From the NCBI RefSeq assembly GCF_921293095.1, contig NC_060251.1, forward strand, positions 65,179,585-65,243,584: 64,000 bases of DNA. The letters are read 5' to 3'. Positions 2,908 to 59,800 of the stretch are shown in pieces (the stretch's first letter is position 1; every line of letters begins with the position of its first letter). Below the pieces are notes generated by a model. That model searched no databases, was not told the origin of the DNA, and saw only the letters and a program-made list of their open reading frames with translations. Source of the stretch: Ischnura elegans (Eukaryota; Arthropoda; Insecta; Odonata; Coenagrionidae). Made by a program: the position numbers and the translations under genes.

Positions 2908-3922
2908 CCCAGCTAGCACATTATAAGTCATTGAGATAAGGTGAAAGGAAGAAATAAGGAAGTCGCTTCTCAAGTAAGCTTGTTATGGGTTTCTTACGGC
3001 CAGGGCGACAAACATCCAGAGTAATGGCAAAATGGATGCCAAACTTTCAGCACTTCCGTAGATGCTGTTATTATCCCATCGTTACAGAGTGTTAATTAAG
3101 GCCTTTATGCATTAAAACAATGTTTTTATTATTGGCGCTTCTATATTATGAGGAGAAACAACATCATACCGCCATAATTTGAAAATCATTCACATTTATG
3201 AACTGATAGCTTAACGAAGGTCGTAAGAAAAACACAATTTCACAAGAATACCAACGTAGAATAATATAAAAATGCCGGAAGGAACATCTAATATACGTAT
3301 TGTAGTCATCGGGTTATCAAACCATAATTTAAAATTCATAAATGTTAAAATGTATGGACCTTGAATAAATTCAGTTTTTCATGCACATGCCAAACAAGTT
3401 TTTTTACATAATTGGATATTTAATTAGTAACTACGCCTCATGTTCTCAACAAATGCCGTGGTGTAGTGGTTAGAGTGTAATACTTCGGTTCCGAAGGTCG
3501 CACGTTCGGATCCACCCTGGTGTTATTTTTTTTCTTTCCGCTGCATGGATAGAGTACTTGTACTATGCTTTATATCTTCACTAGCCGGTTGCTTGCAGCT
3601 ATTAATTTTTTTCTATTTACGGGAAAATCTGTTATCAGTTGTTCAGCCCTTACAAAAACTCGCCAAATTTCCCCAATAGCCTTTAAATTCATGTCAAGAT
3701 GAGCCGCCAAGCATGTGTAGTATGCTGTTCAGCCGCCTTTGGCGCTCCAACAGAAGTGACTTACATTGCCTGAGATTATTTGACGGCATTCCTTACCTGA
3801 ACGTCCCTAACGTCTTACCCTTGCCTTATATAAGTCCCTTAGCTTACGATAAGCTGCTTATCAATTTTTTCCGTAAGAAAACCATAAGAAACGGTTAACT
3901 CACTTACTTTGTGCTATCTGGG
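2908..3922. mobile_element. Non-autonomous TIR element, CCCAG...AGCACA type, inserted in the LINE
   Basis: The left end reads CCCAGCTAGCACA and the right end, reverse-complemented, reads CCCAGATAGCACA (12 of 13 identical). The element is flanked on both sides by AC (2906-2907 and 3923-3924). Removing the element and one AC restores a continuous LINE codon run (LHE followed by WGLRGNLPIF), which proves the boundaries and a 2-bp target duplication. Inside each end are scattered CTTAC/CTTAT words and their complements. No coding capacity is seen. A tRNA-like stretch sits at 3455-3523. The superfamily is not clear to me. Confidence 0.85.
3455..3523 (+). repeat. tRNA-derived sequence (SINE head)
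   Basis: An A-box-like GTGTAGTGGTTAGAG and a B-box-like GTTCGGATCCA lie at tRNA-like spacing, with a perfect CTTCGG-TT-CCGAAG hairpin where the anticodon arm would be. The 5' GCCGTGG does not pair with the 3' end, so this is not a functional tRNA gene. It lies inside the TIR element. Confidence 0.5.
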
Positions 3923-4797
3923 ACTCGTGTAACGTATTCAGAATCTTCTGGCGCCAGACTCGGTCATACGCCTTCTCCAGATCGAAGAACACGGCTATGA
4001 CATGCTGGCCCAGAAGGAAAGCCTCCTGGATAAAATTTTCGGTTCTCACGAGGTGGTCTGTGGTGGATCTACCTCGCCTGAAACCGCACTGGATATTGGA
4101 AAGAAGGTTCCGACGCTCCAACCACCAAACGAGCCGACGGTTCACCATTCTTTCCATGGTCTTGCATAGACAACTGGTTAAGGATATTGGCCTATAATCA
4201 TTTGGGTCTGTTTTATCCTTTCCTTGTTTGGGGATAGGGACAACTACGGATTCCCGCCACGCTGTAGGGAAGCTTCCCTCAACCCAAATTTGATTGAGGG
4301 TATGGAGAATATCCATCAACGCGTTCTCCGGAATATTCCGAAGAAATATGTTTCGGACACCGTCCACTCCTTTCGCGGTGTCTTTGGAATCCGTTATGGC
4401 GGACTTCAGTTCCCATAAGGAAAAAAGATCATTGTATCCGGCTGCTGCGTGCGATTCCGTGAAGTTCAAGTGTGGGGAGCGTTCCCTAATAGATAGGAAG
4501 GCTGCTGAGTAGTTCTCGTCGCTGCTGGTCTTGGCAAACGCTTCCCCGAAAACGTCGCATATCTCATCCGGTGTGTGAAATGTCACACCTTGAAATACAA
4601 GGCACGAAACTCCGTGAACATGCCGTGCTCCCGAGATAGCCCTCACCTTGTTCCAGACCTGAGTTAGTGGAGTCCTGTTGTTGATGGAGGATACATAATT
4701 TATCCAGGAGGCCTTCTTTGACTCCTTTATAATTAGTCGAGCTTTTGCTCTGAGTCGTCGAAATGAGGCAAGATTAGAGGCCTTCTCAGCCTTTGAC
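3923..4797 (-). mobile_element. I-like LINE, RT N-terminal half (same copy as 838-2907)
   Basis: Minus-strand frame with classical RT blocks: VVPIPKQGKDKTDPNDYRPISL, CGFRRGRSTTDHL and the catalytic FFDLEKAYDRVW. Upstream residues (KASWINYVSSINNRTPLTQVW) are the usual linker after the endonuclease domain. The endonuclease is absent: the copy is cut at about 4797, where piggyBac sequence of opposite orientation begins. The minus-strand frame happens to stay open into the piggyBac antisense strand up to 4928, so the first 40 or so residues of that frame are not LINE. The element is split by the insertion at 2908-3922. Confidence 0.85.
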
Positions 4798-5445
4798 CGA
4801 AAAAACCAAATATTTGTGGTTCGTTGGTTTGATAACGCTGTGGTTACAGTCGCTTCTAACTGTGGATTTTTGGTTCCATTGAACCAAGCCAAACGATGGG
4901 ATCGTACGGCAAGGAAGGCCGTTTTCATCCCTCAACCAAATTTAATTCGCGAGTATAACCAGGGTATGAGAGGAGTTGATCTCCATGACAATGGTGTAGC
5001 GAACTACAGAATAAGAACGAGGGGAAAGAAATGGTGGTGGCCATTATTTATAAATTCTCTAGATATGGCGGCTGTCAATGCCTGGAAGTTTTTCCAATTG
5101 GTCACCGGTGATAGAGCTTCGCAACTGGACTTCAAGAGTTGCATAGTTTTATCGTTGCTTCAATCGGGAGTTATGGAAGTAACCATACCAAACCAAGTGG
5201 GCAACAAAAATCAAGAAGAAGTGCAAGATCCTGACGTGACGAATAATCAAGGACTGGGTCGCCCACCTAAAGGGGGCCTTCCAGACTGTGTTAGAAAGGA
5301 CAAAGTGGGACATTTAATCAAACGCTTGGAAAAAAGGAGCAGAAGAAGATGTAGGCATTGCAAATCGCAAACTGTATTCATGTGTGTGAAATGTAATGTC
5401 CCTTTGCACTCAACGTGTTTCAGAATATTCCATGACAAAATGTGA
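4798..5445 (+). pseudogene. piggyBac transposase, C-terminal part
   Basis: The frame reads VRWFDNAVVTVASN, then IPQPNLIREYN, then GVDLHD, YRI and KKWWWPLF, the standard C-terminal half of piggyBac transposases (the GVDLHD aspartate is the last catalytic one). The domain ends in a Cys-rich finger (CRHC...CVKCNVPLHSTCF) with the stop at 5443-5445. The usual GGVD is RGVD here. The N-terminal half, including the first catalytic aspartates, is missing, because the copy joins LINE sequence at about 4797. About 190 bp of AT-rich sequence follows before the Penelope-like piece. Inactive fragment. Confidence 0.85.
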
Positions 5446-5639
5446 TGTGATTGTAATTTATAAACAAATGAGTATTATATGTATATTTATTTTATTTTCA
5501 ACATCATTCATTCATTTGTGATCTTAATATATTATATAATCGTTTTGTTCTTGACCCTTGGGTTTGATTTCAATGTTGGCCTAGGCAACCCCACTAACGC
5601 CCAACGTTGCGAAAACGCAACATTTTTTTCTACTAAATT

Positions 5640-6570
5640 ACTTGACTTATGAACAAAAAAACATCATATTCGTATAGATTACAACTAAATGACAACATTT
5701 GCGTGAAAAAAGTTTTAAAAAAACAATTAATTCTGTGCTTGGGCAGAAATGGGATAATTGAACGTTCGATCCGGCTGAGTGACCCGAAGAATCTATCTTC
5801 AGAAATTATTAAGCTGAAATCCATCCTACGTCTTAATGGCTACGACAACGGAGCTATATCCCGCAATTTTAAAAAGATTATCAACAAGGACAACAGGAAC
5901 GATTCCCAAGACGCAGAAGACATCATTAACCAAAAGAAAGCCTTCCTCCCCTACGTGAAAGGAACGACGGATAAGATCGGTAACATCCTCCGGAAATTTG
6001 ACATTAAAGCCATTTTTAAACCACACGCCCAAGTACGACACTTCCTAGGAAATGCCAAGGGTAGGACGCCACTTCAAATGGAAGAAGTATACGAAATCCC
6101 CTGCCGATCGTGCGAGAAGAAATACATCGGAGAAACGGGACGAACAGTCAAAACTCGGATAGAAGAACACAAGCGAGCCATTCGACTGGGTTACCCTTCA
6201 AAGTCAGCCGTAGCGGAGCACGAAGCCACCGGACATGCAATCGACTTCGAAAAATCAAGAGTCATCGCGAGGACAAAACATTTTAAAACCCGACTCATCC
6301 GCGAGGCCATAGAAATAAAGAAAAACAAGAACAACTACAATAGAGATACCGGATTAAGAATCAGCTAGCAGTCGCCCAGCCGGCACAACGTTTTAAATAG
6401 AACCAAAATATACGTATAATTTCCGTATAAAACGGAGAAATCATATACGTTAAGAGAAATCATATACGTATATCTTGGAGAAAAGTTAGAGAAAAACTAG
6501 AGAAATCCAAGAGAAAGATTTCCTAAATACAAGAGAAATCATTTCTCTAACGGCGAGTAGGGCGCCGCGT
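5640..6570 (+). mobile_element. Penelope-like element, 3' part with GIY-YIG endonuclease
   Basis: The open frame 5649-6368 (239 residues) ends in a GIY-YIG type endonuclease: YEIPCRSCEKKYIGETGR, then RIEEHKRAIR and an AEHEATGHAIDF block. This arrangement, CxxC followed by YIGETGR, is typical of Penelope-like retroelement C-termini. Residues 1-150 correspond to the RT-endonuclease linker (ILRLNGYDNGAISR). The RT is absent. After the stop, 6390-6570 holds imperfect repeats of AGAGAAATC and ATACGTA words. The sequence just after the stop (CGCCCAGCCGGCACA) recurs on the minus strand near 8060. Confidence 0.8.
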
Positions 6571-7900
6571 AGAGGCCATGCTACGAACTAACGGCGACTA
6601 ATACTCGATGCTCGCTTATTACTACCTTTATTGCTAACTCTAAGCGGGATGAGGTTTCCACACATTTTTACACACAAAAAATCATAAGTCTCTAAAAAAT
6701 TATCTTTATTTAGGCACATCTACACCGTAATTTAGAAATAATTTTTAGACATCTGCCCGTTCATTCGCCCAAGGCTTTTCCCACAGAAAGCTCCATTTAG
6801 GGCCTACAATTCCTCTGTTTTCAGCATCTCTGCAAAGAAGTATGGTATAGCTGTTAAACGTAATGACGAGAAAATAATGAAACTCACCTCCAATGTCGAG
6901 GAATAGGTATACTCTTATCAAAACGATGATTTTCGTCATATCCTCACAACACTTGGGACGTACGACTTATTTCACATTAAAAACACACCCAAGTGACTAC
7001 AATTAAAATATGACTGATACGGTACTTATCTTGACGTTAGATGGGAAAATTTAGCGCTGCAATAACATCATAGACGACAAAGGACGATAGAAATTCCGTC
7101 ACTATTAGGATATAACAACACCAACGAGTTCCACTCAAGTTATTCCACTAGAAAATAATTTGAAAATGCATGATTCAAATATTAATAACGAACATGGAAA
7201 GAAATGCTGATATATTATACGTTATTCCAGTAACATTGCACTAGTAAATGCTCAACATGGAGAACAAAAGAGAAATTAATGGTACTTACTTCAAACAACT
7301 TCTTCCATGCTTCAAATACAGATCCAATTGTTTACATACTCGTCTACGTAAATTTCAGGGCGTGAGACAGGGCAGAGGCTACTGCGTTACTCCGTTGGTA
7401 AAAGATATTTCATTTTCAACCGCTTTTACTCATACAGCACGAGGAATAATAGAGACAACTTTCAAAACATTCGTGATTGCAACCGTTTCAAACCGTTGAT
7501 GTTGTTACTCGAGCAGCATGGCAGAATTTCGATTTCAATCATATCGATTGTATAAATCGATAGTCTTCTTGTATGGCTTTCGGTTAGCAGACGAGAAACA
7601 CCTCAAAGTTGGGTATTGAGGACATCTCGTCCCCTAAAACGTGCCAATTACGTGCAGATGAATTATTATAAAGTTGCACCAATGTCAACATGAAATGAAA
7701 TTTATCGTTAGGGCTTAGGGAATAAAGTTATTCTTGAAATCGAAGCATTTGCACTCATCACAATAACAACCTTTCGCGCACAATGGTCCACTTCGAGAAT
7801 TTAAAATGCTAAATAGTATGTTATAATTGTTTATTTAATGTTGGAACAAAAATATTAATTAGCTCTCCAACCGTGTGAGTCCTCCGAATATAATTCAAAA
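6571..7900. other. No gene recognised
   Basis: AT-rich sequence. The open frames here (for example 83 residues at 7248-7499) match nothing I recognise and have no domain-like composition. I see no terminal repeats. Confidence 0.5.
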
Positions 7901-7929
7901 ATAATTTCACTGCATTATTAGCGCTAGAG

Positions 7930-8140
7930 CCGTAAATACTCTTGTGGGCTCTCTGCGAACAGAAAAGATAGGGAAATTCCTACCCTGTGATTTCTCTACA
8001 GATATATTTTCTCCATTTTTTCTCTTCCATTTATGTAAAGAATTTCTGCTGTGCCGGCTGGGCGGTCGCGAAACGTCGGGGCAATCTCCACTGCGACACG
8101 CGGCGTACACCCGAATGTGAGTTATTTTTAAACTAATTAT
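7930..8140 (-). mobile_element. Penelope-like element 3'-end remnant
   Basis: On the minus strand, CGACGTTTCGCGACCGCCCAGCCGGCACA resembles the sequence just after the stop of the Penelope-like copy at 6370-6390 (shared CGCCCAGCCGGCACA). An AGAGAAATC-type word follows on the same strand, as it does there. Only the non-coding tail is present; the assignment rests on these shared words. Confidence 0.45.
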
Positions 8141-9059
8141 GTGGTCAAAACGGGAAATAAATCTCAGGAGATACAATGCATAATTTAAAAATCAATAAAC
8201 ATTTTTAAATAGAAAATAATAATAACAGTCCCTTTTATTATACTCAAGTGTGTAAGAATTTTCCCTCATTATTTGAGGATTCAACCAATTAATGGTTAAT
8301 TAAGAGGTAATTGCATATTACCATTTCACTGTCACCCCGAGTATTCCCTTTGCGCCAAAAGTCACTCAGTAATTTTGTTCATATTGTATTGCCTTGATAT
8401 GTTTTTGTCTATCACTGTCCACTGTATGTCAAATCATTCATCCCTCACTAGCCAGTAAGTTATTGTCTTCATGCTTGTTATCAGTGCTTGATCGTATCAT
8501 ACAGTTTCGTAAATTGAATACAAGTTTAAATTAGGAATGCATGCCTACTTAAAATTCTAATTGTGGTTTTAAATGGTTTCATGTGTGCCCAGGAGCCTAC
8601 CAAACTAACCCCACTTTGTAAGACTATTTATATTTTTATTTGTGTACGTTTGTTTCGACACGAGGGACACGGTAAGCAGGCACTGGTCAGGACTGTCACA
8701 ATACTGTCGTTGGAGAAGCTATGAAAGCCTCCAAAATATAGCATTGAGCACACCGCAACTGACTGTGCAGTACATCATGTTCACTGTATAATTGCCTTAA
8801 CTTGAGTCAAAATAGATGATTTTTCTATTTTTTGTTCATCAGGATGGAAATGGATGAGGATTCAGAAGAGAGTGAATATGAATGATCCATCCTATGGTAT
8901 ATCTGAGTAAGTTTCTTCTACAGAATACAGCATAGGATCAGAAGGATATGAGTGAGATAAAGAAGAGTTTGTAGATCCAAGAATCTGGTGTGAGGTGAAC
9001 AGTTCATTTCCTGCCCCTCCAAGGTTTTCATTGTTTTCTGCTTTCCGAGCCAAAGTCTT

Positions 9060-9215
9060 ATGACGGAACCTAGCCAGTAAGGCTAGCTGGATGGCACTTC
9101 CCTGAATATATCAGGCCTACAGGAATGATACAGAATCCAGCAAAACAATGTCCCATATGCTATTCAAAACGAGACGATAAAAATGAAAAATCTGCAAGGA
9201 GACTGGATTTTTCCG
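9060..9215 (+). pseudogene. piggyBac transposase C-terminal finger, internally deleted copy
   Basis: The frame GWHFPEYIRPTGMIQNPAKQ followed by CPICYSKR matches the GRHFP...I...R-C-VC block that opens the Cys-rich C-terminus of many piggyBac transposases. About 60-200 bp upstream, stretches reading DPRIWCEVNSSFPAPPRF resemble the piggyBac domain N-terminus. N- and C-terminal parts lie almost side by side, as expected of an internally deleted, non-autonomous derivative. The rest of the finger is lost. Recalled similarity only. Confidence 0.5.
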
Positions 9216-9219
9216 CCAA

Positions 9220-10172
9220 GATTGTGACACTAATCGGGTCTTTAAGGGAAGGCATTCAAGTAAGTGAGCAAACACTGTTACTCATATTATTTTTACTCAA
9301 AATATTTGAAATTGAAACCAAAACAATATATGGAACACTTTTGGAATTCTAAGGGTAGTTTTACAGGTGAGTTGAATAAATATTTTTTGAAAATTCAATA
9401 AAAATATAATAAACAAAAATTGATATTTTATACCTTGTAACGAGTACTTTCACTGTCTGAAATTAAAAAAAAACCTGATTTACTTTCAAATAATACCTTC
9501 ATGAAAACTCATCAGTTAAAGGGCTAAGTCACTCCACCTACTGCCCCTCAATCCTCAAGTGCCTTAATCAATCTATAATTGTCCCTAGATCCTTAAGCCC
9601 TCTGTGAAGGACCAGGTCCTTCCCCTCATTACTGGCTTTTCTAGAAGCTCTTCCATTACGCAACTATACCTTGATTTACTATGATTTAGCCTTTAATTAA
9701 AATCAATACTTCATCAACATTTTGAGCATGTTCATTCAAATTCACATAAACAGATACCTGTCTGGTGTCATTTCAGGCTGTACTGCACTTCATGCTCCAT
9801 TTCTTCAGCATAGGCAAGCTACTCAGTTCTTGAAACCACCCTTTTAGTCGCCTCTTACGACAAGCAGGGATACTGTGGGAGAATTCTATATCCCCAACCC
9901 ACAGGGATCACATCTCTCTACACTTGCATGATTTGGATGCAATTACTCAAAAATGTAGTGAATTTCCACAGCAGTCGACATACCGAATTTGGTGAGCACA
10001 TTACAGAGTCATAATTAAAATCATAAAAAAAGAGTCATGGTGAGGTTGAAACTGTACGAGATGTTTTCTATCAGAGTTGGAAAACTTTAACAAGGCATTT
10101 TATTTTTATGCCGAGATTCCACCTCATCTTGATTGCAGACCATCAACTTATTCACATTTACTTACTCTAATC
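9220..10172. other. No gene recognised
   Basis: AT-rich sequence. A phrase at about 9845-9910 (GTCGCCTCTTACGACAAGC) has the look of a dispersed repeat, but I cannot assign it. Confidence 0.4.
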
Positions 10173-10522
10173 CAGTGGAAGATCCAGGATACGGACATGG
10201 GGGAGGGGATTAAGCGGGAGGTAAGCTCCCAGCAGTAGCGGGGTTCCGAACAAAATCACCATTCTATCTAGTTGTATACCTCTCTGGATCTGCCACTGGA
10301 TTGTAACATACCAAAAGCATGTATTAGTCCCTAAGTTTAGTGCTATTTGTATTTCAATTCGTTAAAGTAGGTAAATATATCAGAATATATAACTTAATAC
10401 TTTTGTACTAAGTGGCAACCTCCAAAAATTTCGATTTTATCAAGCATGTTTAAACCCAATGCGGGGGGGGGAATGCTACAGTCACCCTTAACGCCCCCTC
10501 CCCCCCTGTAGACTTGCCACTG
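10173..10522. mobile_element. Small hAT-type MITE (composite)
   Basis: It starts CAGTGGAAGATCCAG and ends in GCCACTG, with near-identical 8-bp flanks (ctctaatc before, ccctaatc after). A second, better-matching right end (CTGGATCTGCCACTG) lies inside at 10284-10298, so a shorter copy or nested end is embedded. C- and G-runs fill the interior. hAT elements make 8-bp duplications and often begin CAGTGG. Confidence 0.6.
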
Positions 10523-13192
10523 CCCTAATCCATGGTCATTTCACATTTAAAGGTAGTAAATCAACAAGCGTGGTAGCCTGAAGCATAGATGGTAGCACTT
10601 TTCTTAAATTCAGCAGACAGAATGGAGACTAACTGAAGTTTGGTACAGGTTTTGTGCTTCATGTAGCATGTATCAGATGGTCACCTACTTTTATGTGGAC
10701 CAAATTTGTTAATAATAAATTGTATTTTCTAAAACAGCCATACTAAACTAGGTGAAACCCACTCCTGCTTCACCCCACCTTCCGTAGATAATGAGTTCAG
10801 GAAAAGAGAAGAGCACATTTACTAAGCGACCATATATTTCATTTTTTAGCACAAAAAACACTGTTGAAATTATTTTGGAATTATCTGCAGTCATTTTCAC
10901 AGTGGGAATAAAATACAAATAAAATACAATAATTATAGAAATACACCACTTAATGCGATGCCAGCTTACTAGAAAAACCAAACACTAAAGCACAAGAATT
11001 ATAAAACCAACATTCTAAAATAAATGACCAGCTACAAAGAACCAAGACATCATCATTATCAAATATTTTTAAAATTAACAAATAAAAATAATAAATATTA
11101 TGCAAAACAAGTATTGCATGAAAAATATACAAAAATATCACATTCTTAAAGACTTTGAACACACAATGAGAATTTATTACAACAAATAACATAAAGTCAT
11201 CAGATTCAACAAGATATGCTTTGAAATTGATTGAACAGATGTCCAATAACCCAATTAATTTGAAAAAGGAGGTCCCATCCACCATATGAATGGTCCTTGA
11301 CTTTTCTACACAAGCAATTCAGTTCATTGCTTATCCAGGGTATTCACAGAGAGAAAAATATATATTTATGCATACAGCTTGTTACGCGGTTATGCCCTTC
11401 TTACACAACAGTCCAACATTAATACAACCATTGGCCCAAAATGCTACATAAATGCATGTCTGTACAGGTGTATCAATATACAGTATAAACTTAAAAAAGA
11501 ACTTAATTGTGACTTGAGTTAAAACCATGACACTCAAATTCTAATTATTCCAAGTTAAAGTTAACATTTCATGTATAATATCCACCAAAGCAGTAACACA
11601 CAATAGAGAAGAATGACAGTTTCTAATATTTGTCCTCTAGGTTACTTCCATGAAAATGTTGAGATGTGTCAGTTAGGAATGCTAGTAAGAACAAATCGTA
11701 TACAATTTGAAAGCCAAGCCCTCCTGTGCACTCCAAAAAATTACAAAGATCAGAAATTGATACAAACTTCAAGGTTTGATTCGAGCGACTATTAATGGCC
11801 TAACCATTTTTTTCACAAAAATAACATAAAAAAATTACCATCAATCACAAACCTTGATTATAAATTTAAAGAATATGAATGAAATGATACTATATTCAGC
11901 CTATGTAGCCAATTATTTAGCAAAATTCACATGAAAATGCCAATCCTAAGGTTGGCTGACATCATTGGAAGCTCTCAATGCAAACTCTTCATCAAAGATT
12001 ATATTTTCTGCACACTAATGATTAACATAAGCTACTTACCTTTGAGAAAATTTTAATTACTACTGTACACATAATTTCTTATCATAAAGTCATAACTTTA
12101 TCTGAATCCTCAATCTCAAATACATGACAAACAGGTGCTTCATTATACTCAATAATACTGAGGTGCTCAGTTTACTGGGACTGGTTTACCGAATACTCGT
12201 TTTACCTGGAAACACTTTTTATGGCAGCAATAGAAAACTCCATAATAAAAGATTAATCTCATTCTTTGCTGAAATTATAAAATCAATTGAATAAAAAACT
12301 GTTTTAGAAAAAAAGAGTTAGTTTTAGTAAATGATAATACAGATTTTTCACAAGTAGTGTCATAAAAAAGTGCTTTGGTACCTATGTTAGTAGGTATGAT
12401 CAAATTTCAATGGTTTGGGTGAAAAAAAGATGTCATTTAAAAGGCATCCACTATATTTCAGTTAAGTATCACAAATATGATATGTGCATTAATGGCTTTA
12501 AATTAACATCCAAATATGGTCGCAATGTCATCCTTGGAGATTAATACAAGACTCTAGGATGTATGCTAGAGGATGAAGATCTCCAGTTGTAATATATAGT
12601 GGCATATGCAAGGCTGGGTGAATACCAGCTGCATTTCATTGCACCCATGAGTAGCACTTCTGAAAAGGCCTCAAAAAAGTATTCTCAGCCGATGTAGATT
12701 TTCCATCAATCCATTTCCCTCAGTGCTTCAAAATATCCTTCTCTCAGAATAAGGAGTTGCACAACTACAATGCCATAACCACAAAGTGCTTTCAAAATTG
12801 GATGTGTAACAACTGGCCCATAAAAATCAAAAACTGTTTATAACAATGAAATTTGTCAACCTCTTCAACATTGTAATAAATAGGCTCTACTGTATAAATA
12901 CCACACTTCTATCAAATTAATAAACCTTGTATAAAACAGCCCAATCCAGTTGAATATAACTGATATGGAATGTAGTTATAACCATTCATACTCTAGGAAT
13001 CAATGCCATAATCATGTCAATAACATGAATAAAATAAGCTCTTCTCCATGTTCAAGACAATTAATAGCATTATGCAATAGGAATAGCCAATTATGCATTA
13101 GGTATTTAAAGATTTGAGTTGATTTTTTACCATAGCCAATAATTCAAAGAACCATATTAATTACACATTTGAATCAGGTCATAAGCATATTA
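10523..13192. other. Long AT-rich stretch without a recognised gene
   Basis: Several AATAAA-like words occur on both strands. The longest open frame (111 residues, minus, 10950-11285) is hydrophobic and Phe/Tyr-rich, as random AT-rich frames are, and is not supported. The stretch is downstream of the transporter gene on the minus strand and could include a distal 3' UTR. Confidence 0.4.
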
Positions 13193-13760
13193 CAGTAGAC
13201 TCCTGATCATCCGGCTGCGGTATATCCGTGTATGATTTTTACTCTCACTCAATATTTTCCGTGATCTTTATAAAAAATAAAATTGGACATAAAATCACTG
13301 GAATTTAATTCATTTTAATGCTAGGACACACTGGACTTAGAATCCCCATTGTAAAACGGGAGCGATCACATCTGCATTCACGGGAGCTCCCTGTTCCTGT
13401 TTTCCAAGCCTCGCAGTGTGCGACCACACTCCGTGTTCATCGATATAAGCCCATGCAGTGATCATGCAGCCACGGATGTGTGGTTTTCGAAACCAGGTCT
13501 TTTATGGAGCCGTAATAATACGAGTACAACTTGTTATGAGTATGTTATCGCCGCTAAAAAGATCGCGGACTGGCGAAGAAAGCTCTCAATAAGTCCAGGA
13601 AGCACTCTAAAATAACAGACTAACTGCATAAATAATATTTTTTTTTCAAGTACATCATGAACATAACAAGACATGAAAGTGAAAGTTCGGGTTATCCATA
13701 TTTTCCGATTATTCGTGCCGTCTCTCCCCATCATTAGCCGAGATAATAGCGAGTGTGCTG
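13193..13760. mobile_element. pogo/Tigger-like MITE
   Basis: The left end CAGTAGACTCCTGATCATC and the right end (reverse complement CAGCACACTCGCTATTATC) are degenerate inverted repeats, both flanked by TA (13191-13192 and 13761-13762). CAGTAGACTC termini with TA duplication are typical of pogo/Tigger-related elements. No transposase is seen. Confidence 0.6.
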
Positions 13761-13762
13761 TA

Positions 13763-14700: not shown

Positions 14701-14710
14701 AAATTGCTTC

Positions 14711-14716
14711 TTTATT
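14711..14716 (-). promoter_or_regulatory. Candidate polyadenylation signal of the SLC17 gene
   Basis: AATAAA on the minus strand, about 400 bp after the stop codon at 15114. Other AATAAA words occur further away, so this is only the first good candidate. Confidence 0.35.
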
Positions 14717-33042: not shown

Positions 33043-33045
33043 TAA

Positions 33046-39665: not shown

Positions 39666-39669
39666 TTGT

Positions 39670-44800: not shown

Positions 44801-47800
44801 GTCTTTGACAATAAATCTGTCGACAACTTCAGTGTTTGCAGAAGCCTGCTGCAAAGTTGATATGGGTAGATGGAGGCCACGGGAACTATCCTTGTCTGCT
44901 ACTCCCAGCTTCTCAGAGATCCCCTCTATCAAATATATCTTCTGCCACATTCCACTCTTTTTCAACCGAAACTGTATTGAATCCAGAAACACATTTAATT
45001 AGCTTTGAGAAATCAATGGTCCTCTCGTATGATTAACAAAGTTAAGCAAGTCCATTGTTATAGGCTATGATGAAACTGGGAAGTTCTGATGGAATAGACA
45101 ACCTATCCCGTAAAAAACATTTATGAGCAAAAAATACTGTAGAATTTCAATATTACATAGAACTTCATTAAATCAATGGTTAAATTTTCAATAGATGTAT
45201 CAGCAGTGGCGGCTTGCCCATAAGGACTCTCGGACGTCGCCCCTCCCAAAGATTTGAAAAAGGTAAAAAAAATTAAATACCCATTCAATTATAATTATAC
45301 ATATAATTAACCAAAGTGTTTTTTCAATCGCGTGCATCGAAAATGTAGGAAGAATATGCAAAAATAGTGCGAGAAGTTCGCATATGTAGCCGCGGGTCAC
45401 TGGCCAGAAAGTTCCAATCCATCACCATGCAGTTATATGGAGAGTGGTAGTGGTGGGGGCTGTTGGTACCATGACGCGTCTAAGCTTGTGCCTTATGGAA
45501 GTCTAGGGATGCCGCCCAAGCATGCGCAGAGTGACGTATCTACTGTGTTGACATCGATGTGCCGGCCGGCAGCCCTATAGTTTTGGTGTTGCAGAATACC
45601 ATGTTTAGGTGATTAGTCGACTTATTATGTGTAAATTTTTTAAATCTAAATAGGGCTAGTTGTAGTTGAGTTAATAGAGTAAGCAATTGTTCGTGTTTTA
45701 ATGTTAGTGATTGTTTTGTGTATTAGTGAGTCATAATGGTCTCTAGATAGCTATAAAAACTCAATAAATACACAAAATATTAAAAAATTTAAACCCCCCG
45801 GTGGAGTGTGCCCCTCCCAGCATTTGACTCACGAGCCGCCACTGTGTATCAGTTGGGATTTCATTTAAATAGTAATATGTATGTAGTTATTTTAATAATT
45901 ATTATACGTGAAGGAATTCCTCATGGGTTCTCCACCAGTTGAGATTCTCCAGGGCCGACATTTCAATGCTCAACTCGGGCATTGTCCTCAGGACAGGGTC
46001 TGAGTGTCGAGCTGATGATTTATGCTCATTGTTGAGCATTGAAACATTGGACATGGAGAATTTCAAATGATGGAGAATCTAAGAAGAATTCCTTCAACTT
46101 GTTTACTAGGAAACTTATGATCTTATTTCAATAATTATAGTTCTATTAGATTAGAAAAAAGGTGGCTGGGGCTTTTCATCCTGTAAGACCAAGATTTAAT
46201 CCCAGCAGTGGCAATGATTTTTCAGAGACTGACCAATCTCTTCTTGATTTTTACTTTGAATTTTTGAAAGCCAGGCTAGGGGGTAGGTATTTAGAGGATG
46301 TGACCGACAGCTTACGTTATTTGCACACAGAGGGAAGGAAGGGTAGAGAAAAACCCACCACTGGCATTAGCTTGCTCTAAACCAAATGTGCCAAGGGGAC
46401 CACGACTTAACTGCCAATTCAACAGATGGAGTGCTACACTTGAAGTGCCCACAAAAAAGCATACTTTCATAAGATAAACCTAACTTTTGCTTTCAGGTTA
46501 GTATGGGCAGGTCTTCTGAAATGAATAAAACTTTTCCTGTCACATTTCCGCGACTATTTTTTAGTGATGGGTCGATTCCAAAATTTTATCGATTCCGATC
46601 CCGATTCCGATTCTGACATTTCGATTCCGGTTCTACCGATACCGATTCCATCGATTCTGATGCCATAGGCTCCAAGAAAAATATCACTTAATTCCAGGCA
46701 ACAAGAAAACCACTTCTAAAGCCCGTATGACACTTCCCAATTTATTGGCCAATCCATTGGATATTGGATTGTGGACCCACTGACACACACCAATTTCTAG
46801 CCCAATCTCCGTTTCACAATATTGGGCACAATTTCTTGGCCAATCTAGATTTTAGAACGGGTTCTATTTTCTCGAGGCCAATCTCCAATCAGAACTCAGT
46901 CTTGTCGACTCCTAGTGGCCAAATCTAGAAGCTCTTTGCAAAACATTTCACCTCGGAACTTTAATATCATATATAAAAACTTTAGAAGCATAGCAATCCA
47001 TGGAATAGCTCAAATAATTAATATGTACTTTGAGAGAACATAAATTCACAAACATCAACTGTCTAAAGTGGGTAATTCGGAAATAACATTTCGGATATTT
47101 AATGAATAAAAACGTCGTGATTCTCCTCGATTGCGTCTATATTTTGTTTAAATTACAATTATTAAACTATTTTTCATGATTTGAGCGCTAAAGTTTCGGG
47201 TGAAAGTCCCAATTGATGACACAATCTCTGTTTATTCGATGAACATATTCCAGCCAAAACGAGCCGCTACGTTATCTTAGCTCACCTATGAGATCACAAT
47301 ATTTCCTATCTCTCATCATTCAAGGAACTCACCCGAATGAAATTTCGAGCAATTCGAAAATATCCTTGCAGCCCCTCGAAATAGTTATTAAATTTACAAT
47401 TATTATGCCATCTCCCATTCTGTAGCTCATTGGCAATCAATCTGCGTCTTGAGATGCTCTTTCGTCATTTTGTGTTATGTGGCGTTCTCTAGTGGGGTAT
47501 TAGAACACTATAACGGCCAATATTGGTGTGAATATTGGTACGTGTCATACGATGCCTAAAGCCCAATATTTTAACCAATATTGCGCGCCGATATATTGGC
47601 CAATAAATTGGCAAGTGTCATACGGGCATAAAAATATTACTCTGTGAAAGAGTCAGTTGACAAAAGCATCTTTCAAATAATCACTATGTAATTAAAATTT
47701 AATAGCTTAATTTCAAAACAGAACATACCTGAGTACAGAAATTTTCATAGCTGTAATAAAGATTACATACTACCCAGTCAACACAACAATTATGGCCACA

Positions 47801-50800
47801 GTATGGCCGAACTGTGGTTTACCTGTGGCAACTATGGCTATGGCTAGCCACAGCTTGCCATACTATGGCCAGACTGTGGTTGTCATGCGGCAAGCCATAG
47901 TGTGGCTTGCCATACACATATGCAACTATGGCCACACTTTGGAAAGCCACAACTGCCACAGATGATAAAGTTTGTTTACGGTTGCTATAGATGCAGACTT
48001 GTTGATGAGTTATCAAAATGAGAGTTGGCTGATTTCATTGATATGAAGAAAGTGTGTTAAAGAAATAATAATATGTATTTATTTCAAGAGAAAAGGCTTC
48101 CACATTATTTATTGATTTAATCTATTTCAGCGTCTTTCCGTGAGTACTGTGATGTTGAAATGTGGAGAGGATTAGATAGACTACCGTAAATGTTGTAATG
48201 ACTAAATATGTGATTTTACCTGTTACAGATTGGTCCATAAGCCTAGCTAAAATAACTTGAGGTGGATGTGTAACATGTTATTGTCTCAAATCCAAGGCAA
48301 TATTGTAATACTAGCTTATCTGTTCTATTGTAATACTATTTATGTTATCCTACTCCACGTACTAATATCTACCAGAAATCATTTCTGATAACGGGATCAA
48401 AATTCTGGAATTCTCTCCCTGAGGATCTTAGACAGAGGGGCTCCATCCATGCTTTTAAAATTAAATTGTACATGGATTTACTCAGTGGAGAGCTAAAATA
48501 AACTCCCACGAAAATACAGCCTATTATGTATCATTATTATGTATTATGTACTATTGCCCAATATTCCGTCTGCCTATGATGTCAAATTTCAATCCTTGTT
48601 ACGTGTTATTTCTTTTTTTTATAGATGCGTATCAAACAACTTTACTTGTCATTTTTCATGAACTTTTGCTTTGATGAGCCATTTTTTGTAAATTGTGTTT
48701 TTTGCTCCAAGGGTTTTTTCCCAGAGCATAATAAATATCTATTCTATTCTATCTGCAATGTTGTTATGTTTTTTTAGTGGCTAACCTAGGCGATCATTAA
48801 TGGTTATATTATGTTATTCATGGTTAATTTACTGCAATAATAAAGTACTTACAAACATCATTTACTGAGTAGGAACTTTTATTTGCATTTACCTTTCTGA
48901 TACTCTATATCGCAAAGTGCTACTTGGGGTATGGGGTGCCAACCAGAGGGCATTTTATCGTATTTATTATTTAAATTGATGGCAAATTAAAATTTTTGGT
49001 TCGCATCTAATTTTCCAAAAAATCATTATTTTTACATTGATGGGCATAGCTAGGATTGAAGGAGGCATAATAATACTATTAAAAAGGAATTATTATATGT
49101 ATAAATATTAATATATTAGTGGTGGAGCATTGTGGCTAGCCAAAATGTGGCCATAGTGTGGCTATCCACACTAAAGCCACATTATGGCTAGCCACACTGT
49201 GGCCACAGTGTGGCCGGGGGTCAAAACCATTATGGCGCCATAATGGCAACCCACTATGGCCACAATGCCTTGCCACAGTGTGGCCACAGTATGGCCACAC
49301 TGTGGCCATAATTGTTGTGTTGACTGGGTACGTATATGAATCATGTAATATTTGGCCCTTTCAAATTCTCAAGCAGAAAAACCAATTATTCTACATGCTC
49401 AGCCAGCAGGTTTTGACGTCTCCATGTTACAGTATTACTGCCTGCCTGAAAATTGCCTTTTGCTACACATGTGTGTTATTGGGCAAGTACTTTCCCACCA
49501 AAATTGCAAGATTTCGGAGACTTTGGAATTTTTATTAAAAATTATATCAACGATTTTTTGGATCTTGAATCTTCATGGAATTCAAGTGGTCGAAGCGAAC
49601 AACTATAGAACTAAACTTTAGTTTTGTAGAGCCAAAAAAAATGCTATACTTCTCACGTCATTTAATCAACCTTAAAATCTCTTGCTTTTTTTAAGTTCAA
49701 TAAAGAAACTAAACGCTACAAATGAATATCACATCGGACGGTCGCAGTAATAAAAAAGGCTAAAAGAGCCTTGTGGTGTGAAAACTCCCCCTACCGCGCG
49801 GCTCACCTCGGCGAAGGTGGAAAAGGAAAAAGGGTATCGGTTGTTGCCTTTCACGGAAATAGTTCTTTTTTCTCTCTCTTAAGCATGCTGACTTAATCTC
49901 TTCACTTTACTTCAATACCCGAGGCATATTTCTTATGCGTGGGATGGTTCCAAAAAATACCCAATCCTTAGTATTTTCACTCGAGTAATGCGCTAAATGG
50001 TCAAGTCGATCTATATATAATCCTTTTTAACATCCTCAGTTTAGTGTTTTAAGTCTATAAAGACGATTATCTATGCTTTAAATGACGATTTTCAAGACTA
50101 ATGTTTTAAAAAACTTGAAAAATCGGCCTCAGTTACCGAGCCTTAAAGTTCCGCAACGTGTAGCTCAGCCTTGACGCGCGATTGAAAAATCGCTCTTATT
50201 TCCTTCGTCGCAAACTTTTTTTTCAAGATTTCTTATTAGTACTCTTTATAAATCTCTACTTTATATTGTGGTACAAATTTTCCGAGTTATATTTTTCGTA
50301 AACGAAAGATAATGTCTACTTTATGTCAAATTTCACGTGAAAAACGGGTCGGCCATTTTGCGTTGTAAAACCCGACAGATGAGAGCCAAAATCTTCGAAA
50401 GTCATTGAAAGTATAGGCAAAGCACCAGATCAAAGGAATATTGCGTTTTATATTCCATAAAACTCACACCAACGCAAAACCACTTGGATAAATTCAAAGA
50501 TTTTTTGAGGAAAAACGATATCTCGCGTGGCATTGAAAAATTGGTCATGCTTGGGCCTCTGTATCTCACTAAAGGTTCGTATTTATATGAAATGGCATAT
50601 AAAGCAATATTTGGTAATGATGTATGAGTATTTATGCTGAGTTTCAAGTCTCTATCCCCAAAAAGGTCATTTTGGACTTTATTCCAGCTTTTTCCGATTT
50701 CAGACCAGTGTGCTCCGGGTAGGAAGACGATCGGCCGCCGCGGCTGGCGTAAAGGTATTCGGCGCCCACGTCGACAACTATAGTGTATTCGGCAAGCTGA

Positions 50801-53800
50801 AACTACCAGGCCAAGGCATTAGAATGACTTATCGGCTTTAAAAACTGCATTATTACATGAGTTTCATGATAGCGCTTCCTGTCGGCAGATTGCTGGACTT
50901 ACTAGCCTCGAAAGCACTGTAATGCCTTGTTTCCACTACGCCCTTCTTACGCGGGTTAGCGCTGACCCGGGTTACATATCGTTGTGGAAACGGCAGTTAG
51001 CGCCAACCCCGGTCAGAATTGTAACCCGGGTTGGCTGACGCGGGTTAGCAGGTAACGCGGGTTAGAAATCGTAGTGGGAACGCTAGTTTCCTGATCTAGT
51101 GAGCAATTGACGAACGTATTTCGTCTAACAACCACGAGATCAGGCAATTATTGAAGGCAGGAAAAACGTTGCGAGTACACATTTTTTTTAATAAGAGCGG
51201 GGATGGCCAATCCTGAGAGAAAGAATTTTTTAGACGACGAGACGGAGATCTTGCTCTCGATTTATGAAGAGGAAAATATCCAACGGAGGTTTCGGGGTAC
51301 ATTTAAAGGCCACAAACAGGTGTGGGCAGACTTAGCTGCTCGGGTATAAAAGCGGCCTATGTTGACATCGCAGAATACCTCCACCACTGCAAGATCTGAC
51401 CCAAACTTGAGGTAGTACAGTGCAATCGCTATCCTTTAGGGACGAGAATAGCTTCTCGCGTGCGCGTACTTATTTTAACGATGCTAGTCCTTATTCTATT
51501 GCACAGCATTTGAAATGTATCCCGCTGAATACGATATGTTTTTTGAAAAGCATCGGGTCATTTGGGAACATCTCCATCCCAAAACCCCTGACTGCTAACA
51601 AACCGTCAACTTCTTCTAATGTAATGCCGGGGTTTTCTTCGTAACCTATTTATAATATAGGCCCTCAGGTTCCTCCTCCGTCGCATTTCTTCTTCCATTT
51701 GTTCCGGAGGCGGATCCAATTTCGCCACAGCATTAAATAAATGTTGATCAAATGCAACAATCTAGCTACTTGAACCTACATTTTCATCACACGCTATTTC
51801 GTTACTCAACTATTTACCTCCCCCAAACTTCTGTTCCCGGCAGGGTATTCGGACAAACTTCCCGTTGGAACGCTGGTCAGGTTACCCATCATCCCCTAAC
51901 CGCTGTAGACCCTTCGTAGTGGAAACAAGGCATCCTTAACTACTCGACTCGACATTCGTAATGCGACTCGAAACGCTCGAGTCGAGTACTAACTACTCGA
52001 TCGACCTGAATTTTTGAGTACTCGCACATCCCAAGAAGATATGTGTTTTGTTATTACGATTACGTGGCGCGAAAATTCAAATGACTGTTGGAAACGCGGT
52101 CGTTTATTTTGTTGTTTGAAGTACTACTGGAATCGGAATCGATTTTTCGCCTTGGCAAGTACTCGTTTTCGATTCCGGTTCTTGGCTGAGAATCGAGGAA
52201 TCGAAGAATCGAGGAATCGAACCGACCCATCACTACTATTTTTATTAGAATACCCTAGTTATACTAAAGTTTTTTAACTAAATGGTGTTTCTGACTCAAC
52301 ATAGAACTAAGGGTGCGATTCATAGACGACACTGAAATTGCTCACTTTACAAAGTCTCTCTTTACGGTAAAGTGAGACTTTAGCTAAAGTTCGTTTCAGA
52401 GTCGTTCCAAGGATCTCACTTTATAAAGTGGAACTTTAGCTCCTAAAGTCTCGATCATGCATTGAAATTTTTGAGTGTTGGCAATGAACGCTGCGAAAAA
52501 GTGAATAAAAAGATGACACACGATATTAAATGCGTACTTGTTTACATGTTTCTGGCGACTGGGTTTTCGTGTTGTATTTTGCTAAGACTTATTAAGCTGT
52601 ATTTTCTCATATTATGTGCAAATGTAAATGAATACTGCGTCATTGAAAGCTTTTCCCCACTAGTTTTTTTGTACGTTAATGACTGAGTTGGCTGAATAAA
52701 AGATCACTTTTAATTAGCTTCGTGCATTGGTAATGTCCTGCGATGTTCTCAGCGAAGTAAATATTCAAATGCTGATATTTTCACGTCGTTTTATGATCAT
52801 TTTCTATGATTAACTGCATACGGTTGTTTGGACTACATGTTAGTCGAAGTTTGATGGTGTACGTTCATTGAAGGTGGGTGAAATAGTGAAATTCTCTCGC
52901 GTTAAATTGAAACTGCCAATTAATTTGAAGATTTACCGATCAGTGGTTGTCTCAGTTGGACGCATATTTTGAATGAGGTATGGGTGTTTGTTGAATTCTT
53001 TTGTGCTTACCAATATTTTAATTCTTGGAATGTTGACCTAAGGGGTTATATATTCTAGAGAAATGGACGAGAATGTACAGTCAAGAATATCTATATCATC
53101 AAAACCAATGAATGAATGGCCACGCAATGAAACATGTTGAATGTGAGAATGGACTTATATCAATAAATATCTCTTTGTCTACTTTGATGCCTCGACATAT
53201 GTGAATACCTAACCCGAGTATCCATTCACGAATTTTGCAGTAAAAAATGTCTGTGATGCTGCGTAAATAACATTTCATAACAATCCTACATCCTCGAGAA
53301 AACATTGCTTTGCTGCTGATAATATGGCTATGAAGGAAAGTACGTTTTACTTTTTATTGCTGCCTTTCATGACGAGATCTTATATCATCATTGTAAACAT
53401 GCAAATGTATAGTCGAAAAACGAAACAGAAACTCGACTCTAGTTTCACAATCACAGAAACATGTTAAGCGTGATATGAAGGCATACGGAAAGAGTACATT
53501 AAGCAAATATTGAATGAAAACGCTTAAAATGCAAGGTGTAGAAACTAGTATTTGGCTGGCCAAACGATATGAAAATCAAGTCTTTGTTTACGAAGGCTAT
53601 TGACGCCAATGTAAACAGAATTTTGCTATCATATTCAAGTATCTTTAAGGAAAATTCTAGAATATGAACGTATAAATAACCTAAGAAAATAACAATTAAC
53701 TTGTATATAAAATCAACATAAATTATGCCAACCTGTTCAACCAATTACTGTGTTGTAATTATCACACGACCGATAGAGTTAAACTTCAAAATATAAGAAT

Positions 53801-56800
53801 GGGGTCATCTCCATCAATACCGACTCGATATATATTCAGGGAAAAGACATATATTACTTGTATGGTTATTTCTAGAAACGCGCCAGTTTGCTGCTGTGTT
53901 CTCACCAAAAAATTAGTGCATATTCATTTCCGTAACCCAAATATCTTCATATTTCAACTTCAATAACAGCCGGTGCAGCCATATTTATTCATCCGTAAAG
54001 GACACTTTAGCCCTAAAGTGAGCTACGGTTGGGCACTTTACGGTAAAGTGACGATTCAGCCATTTTCCCTCTAAAGTGGCGTTTATGAAACGGAAAAAGC
54101 AGACTTTAGCCCGGCTAAAGTATACTTTAGCCTAAAGTGCCGTCTATGAATCGCACCCTAAGATGAGATTCAATCAAAATTTCAAAGGAAGAGATTTGAT
54201 TGTTTTCATTCATTGGAGAATGTTACTTTTTCTTTTCACGTTACATACATATATGTAATTATAAAATTTTTGGGTGAATGACAGTACACTTATAAAACAG
54301 TGTTACTTTTCATAAATATGTTACCTAATGGATTACTTTACATCAGAGAATGAATACTGATATAAGTTACCATAATTATAGCCATATATTCATCAAAATA
54401 TAAATGATATAAGCAAAAAAGTATCAGTTTTCCTTGTTAATAGTCAAAATAATTTTTACTCTGAAAGAAAATGCAATGCATAATAGGGAACTTGCATATA
54501 TTTCAGATATAATCAATAGCCCTAAAATTATATAAAAATATATGTTTGCATACCTCGGTGAAAGTTTTTTTATTTTTTTTAATTATTTTTATTATTTTAT
54601 TCAAATTCAAGTGAGAAGCGAAAACGCCCGATGATTGGCTGGTAGAAAAGTGACGTCATAGTTCAGTACGAGGCACGGCGGCACGGCCATAGTATAGGTT
54701 GCATAATTGAATACATGCGACGGCGTGGTTATGATTCATTTATTGAAGTGCAGACTTATCGGAGTTGTTCATTGTGACTTCAGGGCTATTATTTGATCTA
54801 TTTCTCCTCCATCGAAAGCGATAGATTGCGTAAAGATGAAGGCATATGGTTATTCTTACGCTGATCCTAGCAAGCTTCCTGTTACTGATTCCATCATGAT
54901 AACAGGGTATTTTAGTGAAACTGTAGACTTCGTCGGCTCGGAAAGTCGATGCCGAGAAATGGAAAGGTAGCTGATGTGCATCTGTAATGTTTTATAGTTC
55001 ATAACAAAGTGAGACTTGCGTATAATATTGGCGAAAGCGTATACTCATGTGAAATGTGTATTCTTTTGGCAGTCCGGTAGAGTCTTATGGTGAACTTATT
55101 TCCACCTCGACGCTGTCGATGATACTTTCAACTTAAAAATACCTTGCCTGGAGGGCGACAGGAAGCTCTGAGGAAGCCAGACTATCAATGTTTCAATTAA
55201 GTAGCGATAATATAGACGAACTTCCAACACAATCTACCATCTTGTGACTAAAACCCCCAAAGCCACTTCCTATTCTGCAGAAAGAATCGGTCAATCGCAC
55301 TTCGATCAATATAATAAACACAACGTCTTCAGGTGTTAATAAGTTACTTTTGAAATGAAATACTTCCTAAATTAGCATTAAAATGTGCATGTTTTCCAAA
55401 CAGAGTCTTTAATACATTTTGGGAGCTTTTCTCACGATATATCTGAAACCTACTCTAAAGGCGAGCTCATCGTCATTGCGATCGGTTGTCACTTAAAAAT
55501 TCCGTATCGGAAATCCTAGAGGGATGACTTTCGACGATGACCGTGATCACCTGCACTCTCACTATCACTGGAACCCGTGGTGAAAATATCATCCCAATCC
55601 AATTTCTATTTGGTTTTAACTGGGGAAAGAGCAGCATAAAACTGCGCATTCTTTGGGCAACTTTGGGTTTGACTTTCCCTCAAACACACCATTTCCCCTG
55701 TGGTGCACATCAGTCCTATCTTTATACGATGGCCTGACAACCTTTAAATGGATCCTTGGTTTATCCTGACAACCAACTAAATGGAAATTGCTGATCCACA
55801 CATGTCCATTCTTATCTCCATAGTTTCCAAATCAAAGGTTCCGGAACATTCCTCTTGTGACTCAACTTTTTTTTTGAAAAGCAAGCAACGGCGTAGAATA
55901 AAATCAAAGAATGCTGCGATTCATTTTTTGTGACCTCCTCTGGATTCCATTCTTTTTCCATCTACAACTTCCTTTATCTTTCGGGGTAAACCGTGGGACA
56001 AGATAATGTTTAAATATTTTCATTAATTTATAACAAAATATAAGTTCGAAAAATACCCAAAAGCCATTTTATTAATCCGCACTGATGAGTGTAAATTAAT
56101 GTGGAAGATGAATGCTGTAAACGTAGTAGTTTTCCTTAGGTTGAGTTGCAAAGTTCATGAAGTTGACAAAACGGCTAATTTTTCGGTGCGCGGAGTCATT
56201 TATTGCACTGACCGTGTCTACATTTTTCAATTTTTTTGTAAAAAAATAAATCAGAATTTAGGATAAAATTTCCTTTAAAATGACGTATAGTTCATTATTA
56301 TAGCATGTAGTGAAGCCAGGATATAAATTTGCCAAGTACAGCGGCACATCATTTTGACGCCGACAGTAGAAGAAAACGCTGTCTTCTTGGCTGGCACTCG
56401 AATGCATAAGGATCAACGTTGCTCTATATTTTCATATTTCCTCCCTTGATTTTAAACATCATGGAATTTTCTATGTCCTTCCGTAACTGAAATTGAACAA
56501 GTGCCATAAATAATTTGAGTCCATCTTAACCATCGAGAAACACCTATCTCGATTTTTGTTGTGAAGTTGAGTTTTTATTCTACGGCGGCCGAATTATCGA
56601 AAAATCTCAGTTTCAAGTTATTCAGTCAATGAAATATGGAAATATTATTTATATTAAAGTTATCTTCGCTCACATAGCGCACGGGTTTATCATTCCGATT
56701 ATTATACTCTTATTTTTCCGTAACGCTTATCCCGACAGACGGCATGCATCGAGGCTTTTCTTCTAATTTCCTCCGTGGGAATGCAGACGAAAATTTTTTC

Positions 56801-59800
56801 TAGGGTGTTATTGCACAGAGGAACAATGCACCACTTGTAATTTTTCCTTATTTCAGCCATGTTCTCCTTTAAACGCAACGTGGCTCTTCCAAACCTGCAG
56901 TTACTGCCCAGACAGCACATTTGTGGTAATACATTTGTATTACAATTGTAATACAGTGTCAAATGTCCTCTATTACAATCGTATTACAATTGTAATACAG
57001 TGTCAAATGTCCTCTATTACAATCGTATTACAAATTCCCTTGTATTTTGCCTTTGTATTACAACTGTATTACAAATCATCTGTATACAAAACGTTTGAAT
57101 ACAACTGTAATACAGTTGTATTACAAAAATCGGTACAATTTGTAAGGTTACAGAAGATTTACCATTTGTATACAAATGGTTGTGCTATCTGGGTGGGCTT
57201 GGATCTTGGACTCGTACTGAACTATGACGTCACGGCCAAAGATTAGTGGGGGCGGTATTTTTTAGCCCGCGAAACTCGGGAGACTTTTGGGAGTCATTTT
57301 CTAGGGTAAAAACTGAATTTTAAGCGGAAAAAAGTATATTGCGGTACTAAGTGTTTACTGTAGTATATCAGCATACTGTTTATAAAAAGTATGCAATTTC
57401 CCTATTACTTTCAGGGTAAAATTTACTTTCATCATACTCATTACTTTCATCATACTCATTACTTTCATCTTTCATCAGTTGTTACAAGTTCAATGTTCCT
57501 GAGCCATCTGTAGCCCACATATATATGATTTTTTGGTACAATGATAATTCTCCAATTGGGGTGAAGAAGTTATTGAGACATTACATAAGTATGACTGAAT
57601 CCTTTGAAGTGAGCTCCAACTATGCCAGTGTGTTTCTTATAGCACCCAATAAATACATACTGTTCAAAAACTGATAACTTTGAACTTTTTAACCAGGAGA
57701 ATATCATGCACTGATGGTAGCCAAGGTCATAATATAATAGGATTTGTTTACAATTGAACATTGTTTGGTGAACACTTTAACAGAGGGCCATATAACTACT
57801 TAAGAATCTATGGGATTACATAATTCCTACCAATCCAAAGCACAAAACACCCAAATGTGCCCTCAACCCTTCCCATATTCCCTTACCCATCCAACCCCCG
57901 CAATGCCCGGTCTGAAACTTCAAGAAAGAAGCCAACTATAGTATAAGAAACCGCAACTGAAACTCCAAGAAGACAGCTGATTGGCTGGGAGCTCGGATCA
58001 ACGCTATAAAAGAAAATTCTGCTTGGCTTGGCTCGGCAGAGGGCCATAACAATAAGGCCATAAGGTCAACAACATCCACCCATGTCTTGGAATAGAGGTA
58101 GTACTATATGTAATTAGTTTTATTTGACCCAGTAACACCTGTATGCATGGCACACTCACCTTTTGATATAATATCAAAATTAAAATTGCCATCATCACTA
58201 GAGATAACAAGGCATCAACTTCTTCCCTTGGTAGCTCCAGAGGGCAAGGTGGTTTATGCTGCCAAAAATAGATGGCAACAAGACAGCATGTTTGAGCGCA
58301 ATGCACCACAGTCCACCAAATAAAAGTCAAACTCCAAACCATAAGGTTTTCATTATAGACATATTGCAGAAAATAACTGTGGTCTAACTATTACCTATTC
58401 ACTTTGTTTCCAGGTGAGCATTCGTGAGAGCCCAAACACTCTTGGCAGACTTCACTGATGGGGGAGGGGTTGTACTAAGAGAGGAAGGAGGAGCAAATGC
58501 TGACTATTATACATAACCACCCGAGTTTGTAACAGAAAACACGTGTGGCATGGGCAGCCACAGGTATTTTGGGTTCGGCATCGAGACAATATACCTACTC
58601 ATTTGGTAGGTATTGAGGATAATCCCTTCAAAATAGGCCATGACATTGTCAGCTACCATGCTGAATAAGGCACCATTGGTGGAAGGTGTGCTTAAAGACA
58701 TAGGACGTAGATATAAACAAGGAGAACAAGTGAGGTTTGGCAACACTGCTCTGTGAGCAGATTTACGATGTTAACTCGACGGAGGTCTGAGAGCGACTGA
58801 CTGAGGCCACGCCTGCTGTTTGGCGATTGGCAAAGGGAAAGTCACGTGTTGAGAAACTTTCCCTCCCCTCACCCCCACTTGCTTCAGTCACACCAGCTCT
58901 ACCGCAAAGATACAATGAACAGAGAGTAGCCAAATACCTTAACACAAAAAATCACATTACACTAGTGGTGCAAAAATTCCACAGGAGAAAAATCAGCCAA
59001 GACCAAAATATATTTCATTGTCATAATTTGTAATAAACTGGAGTAGCTAAAACACAAATAATATAAAGAACATAATATTAAACGCATTTGCTCTTGGGTT
59101 ACTTTTTACGCTATATGTGGATGCAAACCTTACCATTATGGTAAAATTGGCATCTTAGATAACATAATAGATTTTGAGATACCCAAAAACATACCTTTTG
59201 CTCATGAAACCTTCCATCCCGAATGCTGCTACCGAGGTCATCAACCCTCTTTCTTTCAACAATGTATGGAAGCATAAGTATTTTCTCATCCATTTTTGCA
59301 GAAGCAGTACTCCCAAGGACTAAAGAATCAGGAATACATCCCCACGCAAAATCTCCAACACTGAGTTTTCGAACTTCAAATGGCACTCCAGCAGTCGTTA
59401 GTTGGTTTAGTAAAACATCCTTATGAGATCCTTTCAATGGCCCACCCCTTAGCTTAAACCTGAAAATAAACATTAGTACTTACTATTCAAATAAGCAAAA
59501 ACAAACCTTCAGATGTGTCTTTCTTAATGTCCATCACCACAGGACGTAAAGTATTTTGGAGGTAGCCTCCCCTATGACCAGATGTCACCTGCGCAACTTC
59601 CCATCTGCCGGCATATACTAAATCTGACTCAATGTGATTCTTGAGTGCTGAGAGGGTATTCTCTTACATGTTTCTGAGTCTTTATGAAAGACCCAAAGAG
59701 GGTAAGGGAAGGTTGAGAAATAAATAGTTTGATTCAAGATTGATGAAAATTTCGCTGACGGCCAACTGATTTAAAGTAGCTAGCATAACATAGTAGTTAT

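Follow-up and report, generated by a model that had tools for sequence, protein, structure and literature searches.

The genome of Ischnura elegans holds a group of DNA elements that are set apart by inverted ends beginning with CCCAG. These are very probably non-autonomous cut-and-paste DNA transposons. They include MITEs as well as larger relatives, fall into at least nine families, and are probably moved in trans through a common 13-bp terminal signal. Four elements of this kind (A, I, B, and C; Table 1) are present in the stretch of 64,000 nucleotides that was analysed, referred to here as the window. Direct observations, described below, cover the ends and target duplications, the interruption of two host sequences, insertions nested in one another and near-identical copies. 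As in MITEs and other non-autonomous TIR elements, there are terminal inverted repeats (TIRs), a target duplication and many copies, and the subset of elements that was scanned has no internal transposase gene. A first-pass annotation of the window had proposed a group of TIR elements that are recognizable by their ends and make a short target duplication with no fixed sequence; the present analysis supports this proposal.

Table 1. Coordinates of the CCCAG-ended elements in the window and of the sequences that they interrupt.
Feature	Position	Strand	Description
Element A	2908..3922	.	1015 bp; ends CCCAGCTAGCACA / CCCAGATAGCACA; flanks AC/AC; sits in LINE-type reverse transcriptase frame
Element A duplication, left AC copy	2906..2907	.	
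Element A duplication, right AC copy	3923..3924	.	
Reverse transcriptase frame (PF00078) broken by element A	3903..4931	-	frame goes on left of 2908
Element I	6375..8062	.	1688 bp; CCCAGCCGGCACA on both ends; flanks CG/CG
Element B	47773..49328	.	1556 bp; ends CCCAGTCAACACA; flanks TA/TA
ISL2EU-like relic broken by element C	54926..57254	-	relative of L064, which carries PF13359
Element C	56907..57193	.	287 bp; ends CCCAGACAGCACA / CCCAGATAGCACA; flanks TG/TG

Elements A, B, and C had been named in the first-pass annotation, and re-reading of the window found their coordinates, ends and flanks to be as given there. The count was incomplete, however, since element I had been overlooked. The ends of element I have G instead of A at position 8 of the earlier consensus. 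The TIR is 13 bp long in A, I, and C, and 45 bp long in B, with 42 positions identical. Subterminal words are repeated in element B (GTGGCCATA and relatives). Element C contains repeats of GTATTACAA and folds far better than its shuffled versions (z -10.3).

The 13-bp end is abundant in the genome. A search of the window's own assembly (1,722,721,009 bases, or 1.72 Gb, in 110 contigs) for the consensus, which the first-pass annotation had suggested, gave 3015 exact matches to CCCAGNYARCACA (1524 forward and 1491 reverse), against 632 (305 and 327) for the same pattern read backwards. Longer patterns are sharper: a B-type end of 34 bases has 89 matches and a C-type end of 31 bases has 109, the reversed control giving none in either case. 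In the window, the exact 13 bases occur six times, these being the three pairs of A, B, and C. When up to two mismatches are allowed, there are 18 sites in the window where 10.76 are expected, a number that was equalled in 2 of 100 shuffles. The loose pattern is therefore weakly informative, whereas the exact pattern, with a reversed-control rate of about 0.02 per 64 kb (632 in 1.72 Gb), is strongly so. Two end patterns had no match in viral contigs. Six exact 13-mers did not occur in the papers searched.

Target duplications were tabulated for 25 complete elements. These come from the window and from facing pairs among the first 100 listed places, which span the first 67 Mb of contig C1, and they therefore do not sample the genome at random. 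Altogether 38 end combinations were found, and 13 that join ends of different elements were excluded (one in L001, 11 in the nested locus L034 and one in the window). Partnerless ends were left out of the count; L050 is a repeat of the window. Identical 2-bp flanks are present in 21 of the 25 elements. Two more have a 3-bp duplication (TTA in L031 and ATC in L044, both of family F), and two, L037 and L043, have no duplication. The 2-bp sequences are varied: AT was found six times, TT four times, AA, TC, and TA twice each, and GA, AG, AC, CG, and TG once each. As a control, the left dinucleotide was moved outward by 1 to 6 bases, which gave 2, 2, 4, 2, 4 and 5 matches of 25, respectively; moving it inward gave 0-1. 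The 13 cross-element combinations gave no two-base match and one three-base match. The variable 2-bp duplication proposed earlier is thus borne out in most of these elements but is not universal. The tabulated duplications also rule out, as had been argued, the groups that duplicate TTAA or 8 bp and the TA-only group; Tc1/mariner, which duplicates TA only, was rejected with TA making up two of the 21. Against the accompanying exclusion of groups with 3-bp duplications stands family F. In a search that demanded CCCAG with one mismatch allowed, each of the 25 elements has CCCAG at the start of both ends (50 ends). The ends do not read CACTA, in agreement with the first-pass annotation.

Two host sequences in the window are interrupted by elements of the group. 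When element A was removed together with 0, 1, 2, 3, 4 or 5 bp, the joined frame was open only with 2 and 5. Removal with 2 bp gives HEWGLRGNLP (LNTLHEWGLRGNLPIFIKNFL), and removal with 5 bp gives QWGLRGNLP, which is one residue short. The codons of the LINE had been said to rejoin once element A is taken out with one AC, and the 2-bp removal does reopen the PF00078 frame. In the case of element C, DNA matches to L064 lie at 55098-55939, 56367-56898 and 57194-57254, the last two flanking the element. L064 thus shows the site without an interruption, and the alignment to it scores best when C and one TG are removed (200.5 vs. 197.5, a small margin); near the junction, the alignment has a gap of 8 bases. 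Elements of the group are also found within one another. At L034, a B element has another element inserted in it, two more lie within that one, and each of the four has its own matching 2 bp. The pairing of ends at this locus relied on nesting and on end sequence and was made with knowledge of the duplications, so that the four elements are not independent of the result. Other transposon remains lie nearby. A piggyBac-type transposase relic (PF13843, PF13842) at 4699-5445 of the window and the reverse transcriptase frame overlap on opposite strands, and a P-type transposase remnant (PF21788) is located just left of the window (L050 255-779).

The 13 bases are common to at least nine families, which are designated A to I and of which B includes small variants. 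Representatives of the nine families and one further element gave no cross-match at E 0.001, except B with its small variant, and at the level of sequence the families appear to have little else in common. Repeated 9-mers (three or more copies) are numerous in the terminal regions of B (82), C (62), I (21) and G (27), where shuffles gave at most 4 (30 shuffles each); by the same count, families A, D, E, F, and H have none. Copy identities and recurring exact lengths make families B and C appear young and family F old. Element B and its counterpart at L038 on contig C1 are 99.68% identical over 1556 bp, and element C is 99.65% identical to copies at L034 (287 bp) and L005 (282 bp). The 27 facing B pairs include 19 of 1529-1567 bp, eight of which are exactly 1556 bp; among 38 facing C pairs, from 100 of the 109 ends, 27 span exactly 287 bp. 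Family F copies are 77-86% like L044 on longer pieces (85 matches; 40 of 1754 candidates were scored). Element A is 96.5% like L042 across its whole length and 98.2% like part of L045; for element I, a relative at L007 is 86% alike over 1555 aligned bases. The near-identical copies of B and C (up to 99.7%) suggest recent movement.

The elements examined are non-autonomous, as the first-pass annotation had supposed, in that no transposase was recognised inside them. The 21 frames of five elements (element I of the window, L031, L032, L033, and L044) had no transposase match (best E 0.13), and searches with transposases of three groups had no match within the elements of the loci compared. Nor was a longer copy with a transposase between such ends, which the first-pass annotation had suggested looking for, present in the material examined. 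Long facing pairs do exist: five B pairs of 2856, 2942, 2987, 5414 and 16894 bp (among the 27) and three C pairs of 3183, 3698 and 2162 bp (among the 38), all three on C12. In the same order, the B pairs are located at C11:63064521-63067376, C15:6771873-6774814, C12:52831617-52834603, C1:94851781-94857194 and C9:8556852-8573745, and the C pairs at C12:25580991-25584173, C12:85408768-85412465 and C12:88764941-88767102. The 5414-bp B-type pair, on C1, is flanked by TA and GA and has no duplication. A stretch of 801 bases in its middle contains spliced-looking coding sequence with no Pfam match above chance. This sequence, at C1:94854538-94854996, has one relative, at C1:159167067-159167517, which is 76-77% alike. 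A DUF4806 protein was considered; PF16064 had no match in the genome at E 0.001, where the controls were likewise silent.

These observations suggest how the elements move. The CCCAG elements are probably moved in trans by a transposase that makes a 2-bp, sometimes a 3-bp, stagger. The trans-supplied enzyme would bind the 13-bp terminal signal CCCAGNYRRCACA, excise the element, and join it into a target with a 2-bp stagger; host repair would then fill the stagger, giving a 2-bp duplication of varied sequence, most commonly AT. In family F the stagger would be 3 bp. We infer a single type of transposase for all families, cut-and-paste chemistry, and recent or current activity; the nine families may instead use different transposases. 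Among the groups named in the passages cited below, CMC (CACTA/EnSpm-Mirage-Chapaev) alone is given both 2- and 3-bp duplications, but its ends read CA..TG; the mechanism is therefore likely, and any assignment to a superfamily tentative.

A CMC transposase acting on ends that have drifted from CAC to CCC is a possible source, though a doubtful one. Repeated subterminal words, which CACTA elements carry, are found in families B, C, I, and G, whereas A, D, E, F, and H are without them. Long open EnSpm frames are present in the genome (at least 26 matches to PF02992 and at least 57 with one EnSpm protein, with frames of up to 882 aa), but three EnSpm loci (16.5, 14 and 6.2 kb) contain no facing CCCAG pair at up to one mismatch; the single one-mismatch sites there, one in the C13 stretch and three in L083, are all on the plus strand. 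Among the B and C ends listed, the one nearest to any of the 62 distinct EnSpm places listed is 26.7 kb away. The matches to the EnSpm protein include two triplets of young copies (C2:13392036/C10:46842380/C12:83119545 and C2:86617908/C3:27232661/C7:64447628). None of the listed EnSpm matches lies on C1 (170.6 Mb), many being on C13, C14, C16, and C17, and the list of C1 ends is therefore no test of the link. An EnSpm fragment is nonetheless found on C1, at L034 7061-7197. In the passages cited here, CMC target duplications are 2-4 bp (PMC4482050) and those of CMCT 2-5 bp (PMC12730594); the former range fits the duplications tabulated above (2 bp in 21/25, 3 bp in 2/25 and none in 2/25). The ends published for CMC in the same passages and in PMC6004678 are CA..TG or CAC..GTG, whereas those here are CCC..GGG. 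CMC MITEs with 2-bp duplications are known from wasps and their viruses, and one of these, CMC-NA_1, is described in the passage cited as short and non-autonomous with short TIRs and 2-bp duplications, much like the present elements, but has CAC..GTG ends and differs from family F with its 3 bp (PMC6004678). No CMC transposase was linked to the CCCAG ends in the loci read.

Less probable as the source is a transposase of PHIS, from ISL2EU or a sister group, making unspecific 2-bp cuts. ISL2EU shares the 2-bp duplication, and DDE_Tnp_4 is very abundant in the genome (2144 first-look candidates), with 309 candidates for YqaJ domains. However, the ISL2EU duplication is AT and the ends usually have GG, according to the passage cited (PMC4482050), whereas here AT accounts for 6 of 21 varied duplications and the ends begin with CCC. 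The best 30 DDE_Tnp_4 loci, of about 3.4 kb each, have no paired ends and a single one-mismatch site, unpaired and at a locus edge. The ISL2EU relic in the window has other inverted stretches near both sides, as seen by eye, the exact ends of the relic not being fixed. When the listed DDE_Tnp_4, YqaJ, and P matches were compared by eye with the B and C ends, none was close. A P-superfamily (THAP9-like) transposase is a highly improbable source. A P-type gene that encodes THAP and TNP-like domains has one CCCAGTCAACACA end at a distance of about 0.7 kb from its 3' end, but the P element in question is bounded by ends of another kind, ACGGCGGGTCGACGG, and its copy on C1 has a duplication of 9 bp. 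A second copy, on C5 and 97-98% identical, matches on both sides of the CCCAG end at C1:8440939, which places that end inside the P element, and P was rejected as the source at this locus. The verdict rests on one locus, the P relatives amounting to 98 matches in all. The element itself spans 6763 bp (C1:8439812-8446574, in L015 and L088) and is flanked by a 9-bp duplication, GCCAGCGTC.

Taken together, something undescribed or outside the groups examined has roughly an even chance of being the source, an EnSpm-like CMC transposase a distinctly smaller one, and the PHIS branch a smaller one still. In its most specific form our reading is tentative: the CCCAG elements could form a non-autonomous cloud around a cut-and-paste transposase group that is as yet undescribed, or around a CCC-ended branch of CMC; the enzyme would recognise only about 13 bp and make an unspecific 2-bp stagger, and the group would still be moving in this genome. 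Some 3000 exact ends with a common 13-bp signal, differing interiors and copies that are 99.7% identical give a means of tracing the transposase through its substrate. A new enzyme would add a superfamily, and an EnSpm enzyme would mean that the CA..TG rule for CMC ends has to be widened. Compared by description only, the group resembles the unassigned families of an insect MITE survey (iMITEdb), 481 of 6012 in the passage cited (PMC5199201), in being TIR elements that are not assignable by their ends and duplication.

A comparison aimed at the ends of EnSpm elements, with L082 as the query, gave a match on C7 that skips 1571-5800, and no inverted ends were found there. The EnSpm locus on C6 has palindromic repeats on either side of the gene, and its exact ends could not be fixed. 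A stretch from L081:5559 to L085:4879 (C6:12738858-12744679) has other inverted ends, CCCCAACGAAAATTTTGTATAC / CCCCAATGAAAATTTTGTATAC, flanked by TA/TA. It contains TTGTATACAA repeats that resemble those of element C, and another right-hand end of this type lies at L085:2573.
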